64,000 nt of DNA from Clostridiaceae bacterium M8S5 (GTDB lineage: Bacteria > Bacillota > Clostridia > Tissierellales > MCWD3): assembly GCA_029227815.1 (NCBI GenBank), contig CP118523.1:930001-994000 (forward strand), given 5' to 3'. Of the stretch, positions 7,986-64,000 are shown piece by piece. Under the pieces are notes generated by a model. The model did not search any database, had not been told where the DNA came from, and saw nothing but the letters and a program-made list of their open reading frames with translations. Made by a program: the position numbers and the translations under genes. Position 1 is the first letter of the stretch; every line of letters begins with the position of its first letter.

Positions 7986-10490
7986 ATGTTTTTATATAGA
8001 CAAAAAGGGGCAATAACAATGTTTTTGAGCATTATACTACTAGCAGTGATGATTTTTGTGGGTGTGTTAGTAGATTATGCACGTATAAAAGTAGCTAAAA
8101 TAGAAGCAAGAAGAACTGTCGGGATGTCTATTAACTCGTTACTAGCTGGATTTAATACTACTTTAAAAGAAGATTTTGGACTATTTGTGTTACATGAAAA
8201 TAATAGAGAGGAATTAAAGCAAATACTAAACCATTATATGAGTAATAATTTATTGATTGACAGGAAAAATATACTTTCTAAATTTATAGATATTTATAAG
8301 TTCAAAGTAGAGGGTGTAGAAATAGAAGCTACTCATAGCATCGTAAATAGGGAAGTTATAAAAAAGCAAATTATAGAGTTTATGAAGTACAGAGCTCCAA
8401 AGGAAGTAATAAATGAATATCTTGTAAAAATTGATGGACTAAAAAAGGCCTCTGCTACAGTTAAAACATACAAAGAAAAAATGTCATTAGAAAAGTCAAT
8501 AAGTGACTTAAATAAGCTTAGAGAAAGACTCTATGAGCTTGTCGGACCATCAATACCATTTGATAATCAATCGGTGAAAGTGTATAAAGAGGTCTATGGG
8601 CAAGAAGTGTATTTTATAAACAGATTTAACAATGAGAGTAGATTTAATAGAAATGCTATAAATTTTAAAAGTAAAGTTAACACATATATAAACATTATAA
8701 TAGAATATCAGCAAGCTAGGTTAGAGCTTAAAGAACTAGAAATAGAGAAAGGAAAGTTAAAGGATAGTATATCTGATGAAAAAGCCAATAGAGCTCATGC
8801 AGAGGATGAAAAAGAAGAAGAAAAATATCAGGATAGAATAGATGATCTATATAATGAATTGGATGAACTAAACGAAGATATAGATAACACAGAAGATAAA
8901 ATAAATAGTAAAGAAGCGGATATGAAAATTCTTTATAGCGAGATATCACAGCAACTATATTGTTTAGTAACAGATAATAGCAGATTTTATATATCAGCAA
9001 ATACGTATAGTAAAGCTAATAAGCTATGTTTATTGATAGCTGATGAGATAGCTAACCAGAGCAATATAGTTAAAGGAAAGATACAAAAATATGAAGACTA
9101 TTTAAGTAAAAACAAAGAAAAAATTATAGATAGTTCATATAGACAATTAAAAGAAGAAGTCAATGAATATAAAAAATTAGTACCAGAAGACAAAGAACTA
9201 TCATACAACAATGGTGAATTCAAAGCAGGAATAAACTATAACATTAAGATTTTAGAAAACATAGTTGATATATTATCCCAAATTAATCCAAGTATTATAT
9301 TTAGCACAAATATAGTAAGTGATGTTATGCGATTTTCTAAAATAGGAGATTTTAAAATGATTACTGACTCTATTTCAAAGGAGATATCAAACTACAAAAA
9401 CAACATAAAGACTAATATTAAGCTGAATGATAGGGTTAGTATGAATGAAGCAAAGTCAGAAAGAGCTAAGCTAAAAAAGATTTCTAATAATGCAAATAAG
9501 GAAATTAATGAAGTGGAAAACAAAAAGTATGTTAATATACCAGATGATTTATATAAATTATTGCCTTCAAATAATAAATTTAATGAAAATGAAATCAAAG
9601 AAGTTTTATTTGATGAGAAAGATAAGAATTCGTATAGTGAGAGTTCATATGATTTTCTAAGTGGGTTTGAATTTGATGCGTTGATGGACGTAAGAGATAA
9701 AATATATGTAAATGAATATATAATAAATACATTTAAGAATAATGTTACATCCAAGAAGCCAGAAGAAAGTAATCTTAGAAACAAGAAAAAAAGTACTCTT
9801 GCTACTTACTTTAATGAGGCGGAGGTAGAGTATGTTTTAAATGGTAGTCAATCTGAAAAGGAAAATACAACACTTACAAATGCAAAAATAATAATGATAA
9901 GATTTGGGCTTAACAGCATACATGTTTTTACAGATGGAGAGAAAAGAGCAAAGGCAACTTCTATAGCAACTGTGATAGCAGGATGGTGGAGTGGTGGAGC
10001 TGCAGTGCCTATTGTCAGGACAGTAGTGCAGTGTGCATGGGCAATGGCTGAATCGGTGACTGATTTAAACTGCTTAAAACATGGAGAAACAGTACCAATG
10101 ATAAAAACCAAGGCTAACTGGAAAACTGATTTGAAAAGTGATACTAAAGAGAAGCTTAAAGTTAATCTTAGTAAAGATGAAAATATCAATCTAGATAAGA
10201 ACAAAGATGATAAAAGTTTTGGTTTAGATACTGACTATATGGATTATCTTAGATTTTTATTATTACTCCAAAGTGAAGAAAAGAGCTTATTAAGGACATT
10301 AGATTTAGTGCAGTTGAATACTAATAAGCAGGGAAATCAAGTGATATTAAAGGAATGCAATGTATGTGTTAAGACAAAAGCTACGTTAACTATAGAGAAC
10401 TTATTTATGACAAGTTTATTCTTTAAGAAGGATCAGGTGTTAAAAGATAATAGGTATAGATTTGATATAGAATTATACAACTGGTATTAG
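7986..10490 (+). CDS. Large TadG-like protein (DUF5702-like) with coiled coil
   Basis: Membrane-anchored protein of 834 residues. The N-terminus (KGAITMFLSIILLAVMIFVG, then DYARIKVAKIEARR) is the pattern of the large TadE/G-like proteins of Gram-positive Tad loci (DUF5702 type, by recollection of the family). The rest lies outside the membrane. A highly charged coiled coil spans about residues 245-315. GGAGGA precedes the ATG. It sits between two TadE-like genes, consistent with a cell-envelope anchor for the pilus in a Gram-positive cell. That role is inferred from position. Confidence 0.75.
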   Translation: MFLYRQKGAITMFLSIILLAVMIFVGVLVDYARIKVAKIEARRTVGMSINSLLAGFNTTLKEDFGLFVLHENNREELKQILNHYMSNNLLIDRKNILSKFIDIYKFKVEGVEIEATHSIVNREVIKKQIIEFMKYRAPKEVINEYLVKIDGLKKASATVKTYKEKMSLEKSISDLNKLRERLYELVGPSIPFDNQSVKVYKEVYGQEVYFINRFNNESRFNRNAINFKSKVNTYINIIIEYQQARLELKELEIEKGKLKDSISDEKANRAHAEDEKEEEKYQDRIDDLYNELDELNEDIDNTEDKINSKEADMKILYSEISQQLYCLVTDNSRFYISANTYSKANKLCLLIADEIANQSNIVKGKIQKYEDYLSKNKEKIIDSSYRQLKEEVNEYKKLVPEDKELSYNNGEFKAGINYNIKILENIVDILSQINPSIIFSTNIVSDVMRFSKIGDFKMITDSISKEISNYKNNIKTNIKLNDRVSMNEAKSERAKLKKISNNANKEINEVENKKYVNIPDDLYKLLPSNNKFNENEIKEVLFDEKDKNSYSESSYDFLSGFEFDALMDVRDKIYVNEYIINTFKNNVTSKKPEESNLRNKKKSTLATYFNEAEVEYVLNGSQSEKENTTLTNAKIIMIRFGLNSIHVFTDGEKRAKATSIATVIAGWWSGGAAVPIVRTVVQCAWAMAESVTDLNCLKHGETVPMIKTKANWKTDLKSDTKEKLKVNLSKDENINLDKNKDDKSFGLDTDYMDYLRFLLLLQSEEKSLLRTLDLVQLNTNKQGNQVILKECNVCVKTKATLTIENLFMTSLFFKKDQVLKDNRYRFDIELYNWY

Positions 10491-10498
10491 GTGATGAT

Positions 10499-11419
10499 AT
10501 GAATCTTATAGATAAAAGACACAATAAAAACAAAGGATCATTAACAGTAGAGGCCGCTATAGTGCTACCAATATTTATATTTGTAATTATAACTGTAGCT
10601 ATGTTTATAAAAGTAGTTTACATACAAGAATTAGTAGGACATGCACTTAAAGATTCAGTTAACGAGATGGCGTTAACAAGTTATTTGTTTAATGTTTCAG
10701 GACTATACAATCCTGATAAAAATAACAGAACTATCAAGGATATAGATGAATTTTTGAATATAAGATATCTACTAAACGGGGATATAGATGAAACAGTAGA
10801 TGATATTAAGAAGCTAAATATAAAAGATATAGTAAAAAAAGAAGGCAAAGATGCCGTAGGAAACATGTTACTATCAAAATATCTTAAGAAACATGATATA
10901 GATGAACATAGGCTTAATAAGCTTGGAGCAAAGAATTTAAGTTTACGTCAATCAACCTATTTCAATGGAAATGAAGATATAGATGCAGTGTTAACTTATG
11001 AGTTTGAATTACCAGTTACATTTAAAACCTCTACAATAAAAATAACACAAAGAGCAATAGCAAGAGCATGGATGTCTGGAGGAGAAAATATTGCAATAGG
11101 CGGTAAAAATAAAGAAGATAAATATGATGATAAAGAAAGTACGATTGTCTTTGTGAGCTCAAAAGGATCAAGGTACCATCGTTACGGTTGTAATATGATA
11201 TTTAAAAATATAAAAACAATTAGCAAAGAAAGTGCGATAACTAAAGGTTTTACACCATGTGAAAATTGTATAGGCAAGAGAAATGTTAAAGGCACAGTGT
11301 ATGTTACCGAAGGTAATATGTTCTACGATAAGCGGTATCACATACATGGATGTATATCCATATTCAAAGATATAAGAAGCATTGAGCTTAAAAATACAAC
11401 AGGGATATATTGGCCATGA
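10499..11419 (+). CDS. TadE-like protein with C-terminal Cys/His repeat module
   Basis: Pseudopilin-like protein of 306 residues. The N-terminus (KGSLTVEAAIVLPIFIFVII) is a clear TadE anchor. The C-terminal 90 residues contain a Cys/His module: GSRYHRYGC, then a 30-residue spacer, then GFTPCENC, which resembles small zinc-binding modules of the YHxxGC/PCxxC type. A second partial copy (KRYHIHGC) follows and the protein ends before a second PCxxC. A related module ends the protein encoded at 23069-24028. AGGTGATG precedes the start. Confidence 0.8.
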   Translation: MNLIDKRHNKNKGSLTVEAAIVLPIFIFVIITVAMFIKVVYIQELVGHALKDSVNEMALTSYLFNVSGLYNPDKNNRTIKDIDEFLNIRYLLNGDIDETVDDIKKLNIKDIVKKEGKDAVGNMLLSKYLKKHDIDEHRLNKLGAKNLSLRQSTYFNGNEDIDAVLTYEFELPVTFKTSTIKITQRAIARAWMSGGENIAIGGKNKEDKYDDKESTIVFVSSKGSRYHRYGCNMIFKNIKTISKESAITKGFTPCENCIGKRNVKGTVYVTEGNMFYDKRYHIHGCISIFKDIRSIELKNTTGIYWP

Positions 11420-60162: not shown

Positions 60163-60288
60163 ATGAAAAAACTATGTAAAAGAGCTTACAGACAAAAAAG
60201 TTCTCTATGTGCAAGTTATTGCTTAGCTTGTTATTGTTTGAATTATCATGATTCAAAGAGCAGTTTATTTCCACCAAAATTTTATTAA
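60163..60288 (+). CDS. Cys-motif peptide 1 (41 aa), RiPP/bacteriocin-precursor-like
   Basis: Begins MKKLCKRAYRQKSSLCASYC and continues LACYC, giving CxxCxC after a basic head; the tail ends LFPPKFY. It is a close paralogue of peptide 4 (60764). The layout of a short Lys/Arg-rich head beginning MKKLxK, a Ser/Thr-Leu pair, then a compact CxCxC-like cluster recalls clostridial bacteriocin-precursor families (CLI_3235-type, from memory). No modifying enzyme is adjacent. A GGAGATGAAGG region precedes the ATG. Confidence 0.6.
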   Translation: MKKLCKRAYRQKSSLCASYCLACYCLNYHDSKSSLFPPKFY

Positions 60289-60318
60289 ATTATTATAAAT
60301 ACAATAAGGAGGTGAGAT

Positions 60319-60450
60319 ATGAAAAGATTAACTAAAAAATACCATAAAAATGTAGAAACATTAGTAATGAATGGTTGTCCTTGTTATTGTAGAATAGTTC
60401 ACGTAGATGATTCAGAGGCGGGTATACGTGATGCGAAATTTGATTGGTAG
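60319..60450 (+). CDS. Cys-motif peptide 2 (43 aa)
   Basis: AAGGAGGTGAG before the ATG, the strongest site in the cluster. Begins MKRLTKKYHKNVETLVMNGC and continues PCYCR, so the cluster is CPCYC; the tail (AGIRDAKFDW) is acidic. The head matches MK(K/R)LxK(K/R) and the T-L pair of the other members. It is the member most like described clostridial precursor peptides. A leader of about 18 residues and a cysteine core are inferred. Confidence 0.6.
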   Translation: MKRLTKKYHKNVETLVMNGCPCYCRIVHVDDSEAGIRDAKFDW

Positions 60451-60475
60451 ATTAAATTAAAAAGGATGTGAAATA

Positions 60476-60604
60476 TTGAGTAAACTCTTTAAAAAGAACA
60501 CTTATTATTCTAATCCATTATTTAATGATTTGTGCGTTTGGTGCATGTGTGTTATGAAGTCAGCTAGAAAAGATAGTGACGTAGTACCTAAGTACCCTAG
60601 TTAG
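60476..60604 (+). CDS. Cys-motif peptide 3 (42 aa)
   Basis: Read from TTG 60476 with AAAGGATGTG upstream. Begins MSKLFKKNTYYSNPLFNDLC and continues VWCMC, again CxxCxC. The tail ends VVPKYPS. It is the most divergent of the four, but the head and the spacing of the cysteine cluster (residues 20-25) are kept. Confidence 0.5.
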   Translation: MSKLFKKNTYYSNPLFNDLCVWCMCVMKSARKDSDVVPKYPS

Positions 60605-60612
60605 CTGAAAAT

Positions 60613-60664
60613 AGAAGGTGTCTCATCAAACTAAGAATAGGTGATGAGGACCTTCTTTTTTGGA
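60613..60664 (+). terminator. Intrinsic terminator after peptides 1-3
   Basis: AGAAGGT plus CTCATCA on the left pair with TGATGAG plus ACCTTCT on the right, with small internal mismatches, followed by T. Confidence 0.85.
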
Positions 60665-60719
60665 ATCATCTAAATGTGTATAATATATAAAATATAATGT
60701 TTCAAATATTGCAAAATAA

Positions 60720-60728
60720 TGGTATAAT
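60720..60728 (+). promoter_or_regulatory. Extended -10 promoter of peptide 4
   Basis: TGGTATAAT (60720-60728) repeats the -10 region of the peptide 1 promoter, including the upstream AA; the -35 (TTTCAA, 60700-60705) is weak. Confidence 0.5.
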
Positions 60729-60763
60729 ATAACTATAAATTTAAAAAAAGGAGGATGATATTA

Positions 60764-60889
60764 ATGAAAAAACTAAATAAAAGAACGCATAGACAAAATA
60801 ATTCCTTAACTGCAAGCTATTGTGCAATGTGTTTTTGTGACAATAAATTTGAGTTTATAAATTATAGATTGCCACCAAGACATATGTAA
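60764..60889 (+). CDS. Cys-motif peptide 4 (41 aa)
   Basis: Begins MKKLNKRTHRQNNSLTASYC and continues AMCFC; tail with RLPPRHM. It aligns without gaps over all 41 residues with peptide 1: MKKLxKRxxRQxxSLxASYC, then xxCxC, and PP near the end. AAGGAGGATG precedes the ATG. It has its own promoter after a terminator, so it can be expressed independently of peptides 1-3. Confidence 0.6.
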   Translation: MKKLNKRTHRQNNSLTASYCAMCFCDNKFEFINYRLPPRHM

Positions 60890-60954: not shown

Positions 60955-61489
60955 AGAGACCATTGTTTTAGATGGTCCAATTTCTGCGACCATGTTAAAA
61001 TTTCCGTTGCTCACTTACCTCTAAGTAAGCTGTGCTACTCAATTTTAACACGCCTTGAAATTGAACTTTTACTAAAGTCTGCTATCTTGATGACTTTGTA
61101 ATCAACCTAAGAGACCATCGTTTTAGATGGTCTCTCAGACCGTAGACAAAATCCCAATTTCTGCGTTGTAGTTAAAATTTCCGTTGCTCACTTACCTCTA
61201 AGTAAGCTGTGCTACTCAATTTTAACACGCCTTGAAATTGAACTCTTACTACAGTCTGATATCTTGATGACTTTGTCATCAACCTAAGAGACCATCATTT
61301 TAGATGGTCTCTCAGACTGTAGACAAAAGCCCAATTTCTGCGTTGTTGTTAAAATTTCCGTTGCTCACTTACCTCTAAGTAAGCTGTGCTACTCAATTTT
61401 AACACGCCTTGAAATTGAACTTTTACTAAAGTCTGCTATCTTGATGACTTTGTCATCAACCTAAGAGACCATCATTTTAGATGGTCTCT
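60955..61489 (+). repeat. 177-bp-type structured repeat, locus C: three tandem copies
   Basis: Four hairpins with arms AGAGACCATC/GATGGTCTCT (the first imperfect) start at 60955, 61110, 61287 and 61464 and separate three cores. The last two intervals are exactly 177 bases; the first copy lost 22 bases at its left end. Each full core starts CAGAC(T/C)GTAGACAAAA and folds on itself: CAGACTGTAG with CTACAGTCTG, CAATTTC with GAAATTG, GTTAAAATT with AATTTTAAC, CTTAC with GTAAG, then a GATGAC/GTCATC hairpin. It follows the peptide 4 gene. Confidence 0.92.
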
Positions 61490-61505
61490 TATCATTTTAT
61501 TTAAC

Positions 61506-61534
61506 TTGAATACATGAGTTAAATATGATATACT
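61506..61534 (+). promoter_or_regulatory. Promoter of the queuosine operon
   Basis: TTGAAT (61506-61511), exactly 17 bases, TATACT (61529-61534). Transcription would start about 15 bases before the riboswitch. Confidence 0.7.
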
Positions 61535-61555
61535 ACATTACTGTAAAACAGAATA

Positions 61556-61593
61556 GACAGTTCGTAAACCTCCTGTCGTGAAACAAAACTAGG
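61556..61593 (+). promoter_or_regulatory. preQ1-I riboswitch
   Basis: P1 GACAG (61556-61560) with CTGTC (61573-61577), a 12-base loop TTCGTAAACCTC, and the A-rich tail GTGAAACAAAACTAGG (61578-61593). Loop CCT can pair with tail AGG to form the pseudoknot. This matches the known preQ1 class I layout (P1, TTC-start loop, A-rich tail ending ACTA). It lies between a promoter and a terminator and upstream of queD and queE, so it fits transcriptional control by preQ1. Confidence 0.85.
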
Positions 61594-61660
61594 CCGTTAC
61601 TTATATCTGCAATATATAATATATTTTATTGTATTATTTTTGATGTAAGGATAAATTTAC

Positions 61661-61681
61661 GGGCTATTATGCCCTTTTTTT
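61661..61681 (+). terminator. Terminator controlled by the preQ1 riboswitch
   Basis: GGGC, loop TATTAT, GCCC, then seven T. Lies 40 bases before the first gene of the operon. The riboswitch tail TAGGCC (61590-61595) may compete for GGGCTA, but the pairing has one mismatch. Confidence 0.8.
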
Positions 61682-61721
61682 GTGCAAAATAATATACAGA
61701 GGTTACTAAGGAGGAAGTATT

Positions 61722-62720
61722 ATGAAAAAAATAGGGATTACAACTACTGTACCTATAGAAGTATTATTAGCTGAAGATTACAAAGTTATTGATTTAAATA
61801 ATGAATTTATTACTTCAGATGATTATCATCATTATATAGATATTGCAGAGAAAGATGGGTTTCCTAAAAGTCTTTGTGCTTGGATAAAGGGAATATATGG
61901 AGTTTGTATAGAAAAAGGGATTAAAGAAATAGTAGGAGTAATAGGTGGAGATTGTTCCAATACCAAATCACTGGTAGAGGTTCTTAAAAATAAGGGAATA
62001 AAAATATATCCATTCTCATATCCGACAAATAGAAGATTAAGTCTAGTCAAAAACGAGATAGATAACTTCACCAAACTATTTGGGGAAAATTCAAAAAAGA
62101 TAGAAGAAATACGTAAAGAACTAGGCGAAATAAGAGATTTAGCAATTGATATAGATAAACTAACATATATAGATAATAAAGCAACAGGCTTTGAAAATCA
62201 TTTGTATCAAATCAGCTTAAGTGATTTTAATGGTGATATCTTAGAATTTAAAAAAGATATCATAAAGAAAAGAGAAGAAATAGAAAATAGAAAACCTCTA
62301 AAGCAAAATTTGAGATTAGCATATATAGGGGTACCACCAATGACAGCGGATATATATGATTTTTTAGAAACATTAGACGCAAGAGTAGTTTATAATGAGG
62401 TGCAAAGAGAGTTTGCTTTTCCAAGGCACCACAAAGCTAAAAATATATATGAACAATATTATGATTATACCTATCCTTATGATGTGATGTTTAGGTTAGA
62501 AGAGATCAAAAAGCAAATTACACATAGAAAAATAGATGCAGTCATACATTATACCCAAAGCTTTTGTCATAAGGCAATAGAGCATATAGTTATAAACAAA
62601 GAGTTAGATGTACCAGTTTTAAATATAGAAGGTGACAAACTCAACGAGTTAGATGCTAGAACAAAACTCAGATTAGAGGCGTTTACAGACATGCTCCTAG
62701 ATAGAAAAGGGGTGTATTGA
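61722..62720 (+). CDS. 2-hydroxyacyl-CoA dehydratase (HgdB/YjiM)-like iron-sulfur protein
   Basis: Protein of 332 residues, AAGGAGGAAG before the ATG. It belongs to the D-component class of 2-hydroxyacyl-CoA dehydratases and related reductases, which hold a [4Fe-4S] cluster reduced by an ATP-driven activase. Candidate ligands are the Cys of KSLCAWIKG, the Cys of GGDCSNT and the Cys of TQSFCHKAIEHI. Its partner activase follows with a 1-base overlap. Placement as first gene of a preQ1-riboswitch operon with queD and queE suggests a role in queuosine metabolism. Substrate unproven. Confidence 0.82.
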   Translation: MKKIGITTTVPIEVLLAEDYKVIDLNNEFITSDDYHHYIDIAEKDGFPKSLCAWIKGIYGVCIEKGIKEIVGVIGGDCSNTKSLVEVLKNKGIKIYPFSYPTNRRLSLVKNEIDNFTKLFGENSKKIEEIRKELGEIRDLAIDIDKLTYIDNKATGFENHLYQISLSDFNGDILEFKKDIIKKREEIENRKPLKQNLRLAYIGVPPMTADIYDFLETLDARVVYNEVQREFAFPRHHKAKNIYEQYYDYTYPYDVMFRLEEIKKQITHRKIDAVIHYTQSFCHKAIEHIVINKELDVPVLNIEGDKLNELDARTKLRLEAFTDMLLDRKGVY

Positions 62721-63490
62721 TGAAGTGTTTAGGAATAGATTTAGGCAGTAGAGAAGTAAAGATAGTTGCGATGAAAGACTTAGAGATTGTTTCCAAAGAG
62801 AAAATAAGCACTGTTTCGTTTTACAAGAACTATTGTGGTTATAGAGACGGTAAAATAGTAGTTGATTTAAATAAACTTGGATGCTTGGATGTAGACAAAG
62901 CTGTATCAACAGGCTATGGAAGAAACAATACTAATTTAAAAGAATTTAAAGCAATCAATGAAGTTAAAGCCCATGTGTATGGAGCTTTGTATCAAACGAG
63001 TATCAAAGATTTTACGTTGCTTGATGTAGGTGGACAGGATGTAAAGGCTGTAAAGGTTGAAAAAGGGATAATAACCGACTTACAATTAAATGACAAATGT
63101 GCAGCTTCATGTGGTAGATATCTAGAGAATATGGCAAATGTGTTAGAGATAGAGTTAGATGATATGGGAGAGTATTATAAAGATCCAGTAAATCTTAACT
63201 CAACTTGTGCAGTTTTTTCAGAGTCAGAATTGATTGGGAAGATAGCAGAAGGCATTGGTATGGACAGATTATGTGCAGGAGTAAATTACTCGCTGTATAA
63301 GAGAATATTGCCCATGCTTTCAAATTTAAACAACTCTATTTTAATAATGGCGGGTGGAGCTTCAAAGAATAAAGCTCTTGTAGAGTATTTAAAAAAAGAT
63401 TTCAAAGAAGTTGTAGTTTTAAAAGAAAATCAGTTTAATGGAGCAATAGGATGTTGTTATTATGCTCATAAATTTCTAAGGGAGAGATAG
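62720..63490 (+). CDS. BadF/BcrA-type ATP-dependent activase
   Basis: Acyl-CoA dehydratase activase of 256 residues from ATG 62720, overlapping the preceding stop by 1 base. ASKHA fold motifs: GIDLGSREVKIV, LLDVGGQDVKAV and IMAGGASKN. The cluster cysteines are in NDKCAASCGRYLENMA and STCAVFSESE. It hydrolyses ATP to drive single low-potential electrons into the partner dehydratase-like protein. All expected residues are present. Confidence 0.92.
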   Translation: MKCLGIDLGSREVKIVAMKDLEIVSKEKISTVSFYKNYCGYRDGKIVVDLNKLGCLDVDKAVSTGYGRNNTNLKEFKAINEVKAHVYGALYQTSIKDFTLLDVGGQDVKAVKVEKGIITDLQLNDKCAASCGRYLENMANVLEIELDDMGEYYKDPVNLNSTCAVFSESELIGKIAEGIGMDRLCAGVNYSLYKRILPMLSNLNNSILIMAGGASKNKALVEYLKKDFKEVVVLKENQFNGAIGCCYYAHKFLRER

Positions 63491-63492
63491 AT

Positions 63493-63912
63493 ATGTATGG
63501 ATTAAAAATTCAGCACAGCTTTGATAGTGCACATTTTTTAAAAGATTATTATGGGAAGTGTGCAAATATTCATGGTCATAGATGGAACGTAGAAGTGTTT
63601 ATAAAAAGTGAAACACTTAATAGAGATGGAGAAAAAAGAGGTATGATTGTAGACTTTGGTGATCTAAAAAGAGATGTTAAAGAAGTATTAGATTTCTATG
63701 ATCATAGTTTAATAATAGAAAAAGACAGCCTAAAGCCAAAAACAAAAGAGTGTTTACTTGATGAAGGTTTTAGAATTTTAGAAGTAGATTTTAGACCAAC
63801 AGCAGAGTGTTTTAGCGAATTTTTCTACAAAGCTGTTGAAAGTCGTGGTTATGATGTAGAAAAGGTGATTGTGTATGAAACTCCAAATAACTGTGCATTA
63901 TATTATGAATAG
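63493..63912 (+). CDS. queD: 6-carboxy-5,6,7,8-tetrahydropterin synthase
   Basis: Queuosine/preQ0 pathway enzyme of 139 residues. Zinc ligands are His in FDSAHFL and the two His in NIHGHRWNV; the catalytic Cys is in GKCANIHGH; the catalytic pair includes YDHSLII, and the pterin anchor is VYETPNNCA. AGGGAGAG precedes the ATG 2 bases after the activase gene. Regulation by the preQ1 riboswitch upstream fits this role. Confidence 0.95.
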   Translation: MYGLKIQHSFDSAHFLKDYYGKCANIHGHRWNVEVFIKSETLNRDGEKRGMIVDFGDLKRDVKEVLDFYDHSLIIEKDSLKPKTKECLLDEGFRILEVDFRPTAECFSEFFYKAVESRGYDVEKVIVYETPNNCALYYE

Positions 63913-63923
63913 AGGTGCAAATT

Positions 63924-64000
63924 GTGTATAAAATAGCTGAAAAATTTACTAGCATAAATGGAGAAGGAAGATTGTGTGGACAGCTAGCCGTATTTATAAG
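63924..64000 (+). CDS. queE: 7-carboxy-7-deazaguanine synthase, 5' end only
   Basis: GTG 63924 with GAGGTG upstream opens a frame running to the window end: YKIAEKFTSINGEGRLCGQL then AVFI. This is the diagnostic QueE N-terminus (INGEGxxxGxxAVFI) just before the radical SAM cysteines, which lie outside the window. It continues the queuosine operon. Confidence 0.88.
   Translation, partial: MYKIAEKFTSINGEGRLCGQLAVFI

Follow-up and report, generated by a model that had tools for sequence, protein, structure and literature searches.

The window analysed here, a stretch of 64,000 nucleotides from Clostridiaceae bacterium M8S5, ends inside a queuosine (que) operon, in which the genes for an HGD-D family iron-sulfur protein and an ATP-dependent activase stand immediately ahead of queD and queE. 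The features are, in order:

61506..61534, + strand: promoter-like site TTGAAT-17-TATACT, with TG ahead of the second hexamer (9 of 12 consensus matches)
61552..61598, + strand: preQ1-I riboswitch aptamer (GACAGUUCGUAAACCUCCUGUC...AAACAAAACUAGG; RF00522, 24 bits)
61661..61681, + strand: terminator-like hairpin GGGC-UAUUAU-GCCC followed by U7 (-8.1 kcal/mol, z -3.2)
61722..62720, + strand: HGD-D (PF06050) family [4Fe-4S] protein, proposed catalytic subunit of a preQ0 reductase (profiles, fold, invariant C52/C78/C282)
62720..63490, + strand: BcrA/HgdC-type ATP-dependent activase, the putative electron donor (TIGR00241; KCAAS and TCAVF cluster-ligand motifs conserved)
63493..63912, + strand: queD (TIGR03367, 93.3 bits, cut-off 89.25)
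63915..64000, + strand: queE, 5' part only (start at about 63915; the end of the window cuts the gene)

In the whole genome the operon is extended downstream by folE and then queC (queE at L008:8916-9590, folE at 9593-10183, queC at 10199-10852). The profiles thus matched are those of QueD, a radical SAM protein (QueE), GTP cyclohydrolase I and QueC; queF is missing from the operon. The order and coordinates of riboswitch, HGD-D protein, activase, queD and queE had been given in a preliminary description of this DNA, and sequence and profiles confirm them. The one-base overlap that it reported is also real: the activase starts with an ATG at 62720 whose A also closes the TGA stop of the HGD-D gene.

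The DNA ahead of the operon has features of its own. A non-coding unit of 177 bases occurs three times in tandem at 60977-61507 (89-100% identical), stopping just short of the promoter-like site, and each copy bears a TAAGAGACCATC...GATGGTCTC hairpin. Further upstream, at 60163-60889 on the + strand, four small cysteine-rich peptides of 41-44 amino acids are encoded consecutively (e.g. MKKLCKRAYRQKSSLCASYCLACYC...), two of them with weak matches to TIGR04065, the CLI_3235 bacteriocin precursor (16.4 and 12.1 bits, cut-off 26).

The preliminary description had placed a promoter, a preQ1-I riboswitch and a terminator before the pair, and these three elements do not stand equally well. No Rfam family reaches its gathering threshold anywhere in the window, the preQ1-I aptamer included (24 bits against 39 for RF00522), and the aptamers of five relatives score 25-28 bits with the same model. 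Despite this, 74 of 78 testable loci carry the motif CAGUUC-loop-CCUGUC-AAACAAAACUA ahead of the pair, at a median distance of 148 bases 5' of the gene, against 0 of 2,340 dinucleotide shuffles (a strict version of the pattern found 57 of 78; it was relaxed once after the misses were read, and the relaxed form was tested on the shuffles and on the remainder of the loci). Among genomes of the same order it precedes the pair in 12 of 13 loci, that of G214 being the one without it. Because the motif recurs in this way and not in the shuffles, we consider the aptamer at 61552-61598 to be real. Elsewhere in the 1.37 Mb of loci the motif has four further copies, each a second copy in a locus where queD is distant from the pair (L067, L087, L101 and L134; in three of these, other que genes are distant too). 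As for the terminator, the hairpin is probably the expression platform; its stem is made of four G-C pairs ahead of the U7 tract, and a consensus scan that requires five pairs listed no terminator. A match to the rimP leader over this hairpin, together with matches to XIST and SNORA, is put down to chance or to shared terminator sequence. The promoter-like site is weak by itself, three such sites having been found near the operon start where 1.4 are expected by chance.

The HGD-D protein (332 amino acids) matches the whole domain of PF06050 (120.9 bits, cut-off 28.4; positions 2-342 of 342 in the profile). The activase matches PF01869 (107.2 bits, cut-off 31.5) and the acyl-CoA dehydratase activase family TIGR00241 (168.8 bits, cut-off 125.4); both of its cluster cysteines, C127 and C163, are invariant, and its closest solved structure is 1hux (E 5.6e-37). 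Neither protein has a Pfam match to the QueF T-fold profile PF14489. The NCBI family models give the HGD-D protein no name; the best of them is the double-cubane family NF040772 at 50 bits (cut-off 350). An AlphaFold model of it made with 48 homologues (mean pLDDT 89.8) matches, over the whole chain, the double-cubane protein DCCP, benzoyl-CoA reductase subunits and 2-hydroxyisocaproyl-CoA dehydratase (HadBC), with Z of 26-30, the next unrelated row being at 7.8.

Exactly three cysteines, C52, C78 and C282, are invariant in the 48 sequences, whose tree is poorly resolved. They align to cysteines 82, 112 and 340 of a DCCP-like paralogue in the same genome; cysteines 44, 251, 277, 307 and 309 of this paralogue, in the second-cubane region, have no cysteine counterpart in the HGD-D protein. 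Both the score and these cysteines thus argue against placing it among the DCCPs. In BzdO, the active-site subunit of a benzoyl-CoA reductase, a [4Fe-4S]-OH2 cluster is ligated by three cysteines, and DCCP, a relative of our protein, reduces acetylene, hydrazine and azide (PMC11971306). We therefore expect the three invariant cysteines to be the ligands of a predicted [4Fe-4S] cluster with one iron left free: since they match the ligands of the relatives, and the cysteines of the second cubane are gone, a single cubane with an open iron site would form the active site. The paralogue itself belongs to a separate DCCP-like HGD-D/activase pair (L001, at G000:C1:3851032-3855063) which has kept its extra cysteines, and the genome therefore holds a built-in comparison.

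A scan of species genomes gave 302 relatives, of which the best 80 were taken, from Clostridium and other Clostridia, Halanaerobiales and Fusobacteria. Carriers of the pair include C. carboxidivorans P7 (L103). In all of these best 80 a single HGD-D gene, rather than two genes for paralogous subunits, is followed by an adjoining activase gene. The neighbours include queC, queD or queE in 66 of the 80 loci; 74 have que genes or a transporter for queuosine precursors next to the pair, and none has queF there. These counts, with the recurrence of the riboswitch motif given above, answer the check on clostridial genomes proposed in the preliminary description. They support its view that the pair works in the queuosine pathway and that its substrate is probably not a CoA ester, against which the genomic context counts.

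Particularly instructive are three genomes without a true queC match (G217, G248 and G023, the last 88% complete), in which the pair is followed by a transporter of the COG1738/YhhQ family (PF02592, 178-182 bits); the same transporter is found in G022, where queC lies elsewhere. This family is needed for the uptake of preQ0 in E. coli (PMC5372724). The pair is thus kept where the synthesis of preQ0 is gone but its uptake is present, and would most simply act after preQ0. A more distant pair, 47-51% identical, occurs in three genomes of one family (G320, G353 and G428), where que genes are absent from its surroundings and nothing matches the riboswitch motif. G353 is without queC; the other two have queC and no queF, and in these two the distant pair may serve queuosine synthesis. 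In all three genomes (loci L142, L141 and L143, respectively) its neighbours form a conserved gene cluster in which response regulators are found among other genes.

In the known pathway, FolE, QueD, QueE and QueC lead to preQ0, QueF converts preQ0 to preQ1 and Tgt inserts preQ1 in tRNA, after which QueA adds the epoxycyclopentane and QueG or QueH takes off the epoxide oxygen (PMC5372724). The genome studied here has folE, queD, queE, queC, tgt (603 bits), queA (468 bits) and queG (317 bits, cut-off 200), and the profile search found neither QueF nor QueH in it. As QueG already covers the epoxide step, the sole gap among the known steps is that of QueF.

The same gap accompanies the pair in other genomes. 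We surveyed 249 genomes of the same order, counting as true QueF those matches above 110 bits and as true QueC those above 190 bits; the HGD-D orthologues recognised there are 53-100% identical, the next match being at 29%. The pair is present in 13 genomes and true QueF in 12, without any overlap, and each of the 14 genomes with true QueC carries exactly one of the two (nine the pair, five QueF). A second survey, of 226 genomes drawn from the whole class, gave 32 genomes with QueC, 17 with the pair and 15 with QueF, none with both and none with neither. Taken together, with the window's genome, which both surveys share, counted once, 45 distinct QueC genomes divide into 25 with the pair and 20 with QueF, again with none having both or neither; the exact chance probability of so clean a split, given the margins, is 3e-13, a statistic that ignores shared ancestry. 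Three genera contain both states (G016/G017, G337/G438 and G364/G460), which indicates that the swap recurred and was not one old event.

No QueF was found in 50 further pair-bearing genomes, which overlap with the order survey by at least one genome (L100). Four weak matches to the QueF profile appeared among them, at 21-27 bits versus 105-124 bits for true QueF, and by sequence the strongest of the four is FolE, the GTP cyclohydrolase I related to QueF. A divergent QueF missed by the profile is unlikely, since the profile reaches even FolE at these scores; the absence of queF is judged with one profile on assemblies of varying completeness. QueF being the enzyme that is always missing where the pair occurs, the conversion of preQ0 to preQ1 is the likely step of the pair.

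We think it very probable, on this comparative evidence, that the pair stands in for QueF without being its orthologue, as an oxygen-sensitive, ATP-dependent Fe-S nitrile reductase that turns preQ0 (7-cyano-7-deazaguanine) into preQ1 (7-aminomethyl-7-deazaguanine), a reaction that would take four electrons and four protons. Judging from its relatives, the activase would be a dimer with one [4Fe-4S] cluster which hydrolyses ATP and pushes electrons singly, at very low potential, to the HGD-D protein, in which three cysteines are predicted to ligate a single [4Fe-4S] cluster and to leave one of its irons open. With preQ0 bound at this iron or close to it, the nitrile would be reduced stepwise through an imine to the aminomethyl group, and the resulting preQ1 would go to Tgt and also repress the operon through the riboswitch. 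HGD-D/activase systems usually spend two ATP per electron; if this holds for the pair, each preQ1 would cost eight ATP. To our knowledge, the reduction of a nitrile has not been described for the HGD-D enzyme family.

Three other readings have to be weighed against this one. The pair might reduce preQ0 already inserted in tRNA (preQ0-tRNA to preQ1-tRNA) and not the free base. Such a reaction would be compatible with the phylogenetic profile, and bacterial Tgt can accept preQ0. We nevertheless consider it quite unlikely: control of the operon by a preQ1 riboswitch implies that the product forms a free preQ1 pool, and the base that bacterial Tgt exchanges is described as preQ1 (PMC11130926, PMC5372724). 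Alternatively, some protein encoded elsewhere could replace QueF, and the pair could have an accessory role, such as the activation of a que enzyme or its reductive upkeep, or the salvage of another modified base. The chemistry of HGD-D/activase systems is varied enough for this (PMC11971306), but an accessory role, which we regard as very improbable, would explain neither why every queC-positive genome has the pair exactly where queF is missing nor why preQ0 transporters adjoin it in the genomes without queC. Finally, removal of the epoxide oxygen from epoxyqueuosine in tRNA, the example given in the preliminary description, which also proposed asking whether pair-bearing genomes are devoid of both queG and queH, would suit the place of the pair within que operons and the reductive C-O cleavage known in its family, and one pair-bearing, queC-positive genome (G008) does have neither QueG over the cut-off nor QueH, but we reject it as the least probable reading because true QueG is present in the window's own genome and over the cut-off in 12 of the 13 pair-bearing genomes of the order (QueH in 0 of 13), and because the pair excludes QueF, not QueG.

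If the pair does reduce free preQ0 to preQ1, the implications reach beyond this operon. It is likely that we are dealing here with another biological way, unrelated to the first, of turning a nitrile into a primary amine, in which an ATP-driven, low-potential HGD-D [4Fe-4S] enzyme would reduce preQ0, an N-heterocycle, instead of a CoA ester, and would replace QueF across anaerobic Clostridia, Halanaerobiales and Fusobacteria. QueF has been treated as the only way from preQ0 to preQ1, and published pathway reconstructions score an organism as a full queuosine maker only if it has queF (PMC6593275, PMC11130926). Many anaerobes with queC and without queF would then have been wrongly scored as unable to finish queuosine, and a new reaction would be added to those of the HGD-D family. 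A different chemistry for reducing nitriles, perhaps of interest for biocatalysis, would become directly accessible to testing with a single gene pair. In a literature search that left subscription journals and preprints largely uncovered, we found no relevant report joining queuosine, QueF or the preQ1 riboswitch with hydroxyglutaryl- or hydroxyacyl-CoA dehydratases. Nor was a replacement of QueF found reported, and the small coverage of those sources makes priority uncertain.

It remains to compare the pair with the systems that it most resembles. With QueF it would share the reaction, from preQ0 to preQ1, and it shares the place in an operon with queC, queD and queE (in genomes of the queF type, queF sits within the same que operon, as in L053 and L054) as well as control by a preQ1 riboswitch of the same kind. 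The two are otherwise unrelated: QueF has the T-fold, draws on NADPH and forms a covalent thioimide on a cysteine, whereas the pair is an ATP-dependent Fe-S system. The epoxyqueuosine reductases QueG and QueH also carry out a reductive step in the queuosine pathway, but a different one, and QueG coexists with the pair. In structure the likeness is elsewhere. BzdO (class I benzoyl-CoA reductase) and HadB (2-hydroxyisocaproyl-CoA dehydratase) have the same fold (Z 26-30), the three-cysteine [4Fe-4S] pattern and an ATP-driven activase, but they belong to heterodimers that work on CoA esters, whereas the pair has one HGD-D gene and no neighbours from CoA metabolism. DCCP with its activase (6eno, 7yyl, 7yzm) resembles the pair in its full-length fold (Z about 29, 23% identity) and in having a single kind of catalytic gene plus an activase; it differs in possessing the second-cubane cysteines, and the HGD-D protein is about 55-90 residues shorter and scores 50 bits against the 350 asked for by the double-cubane family.
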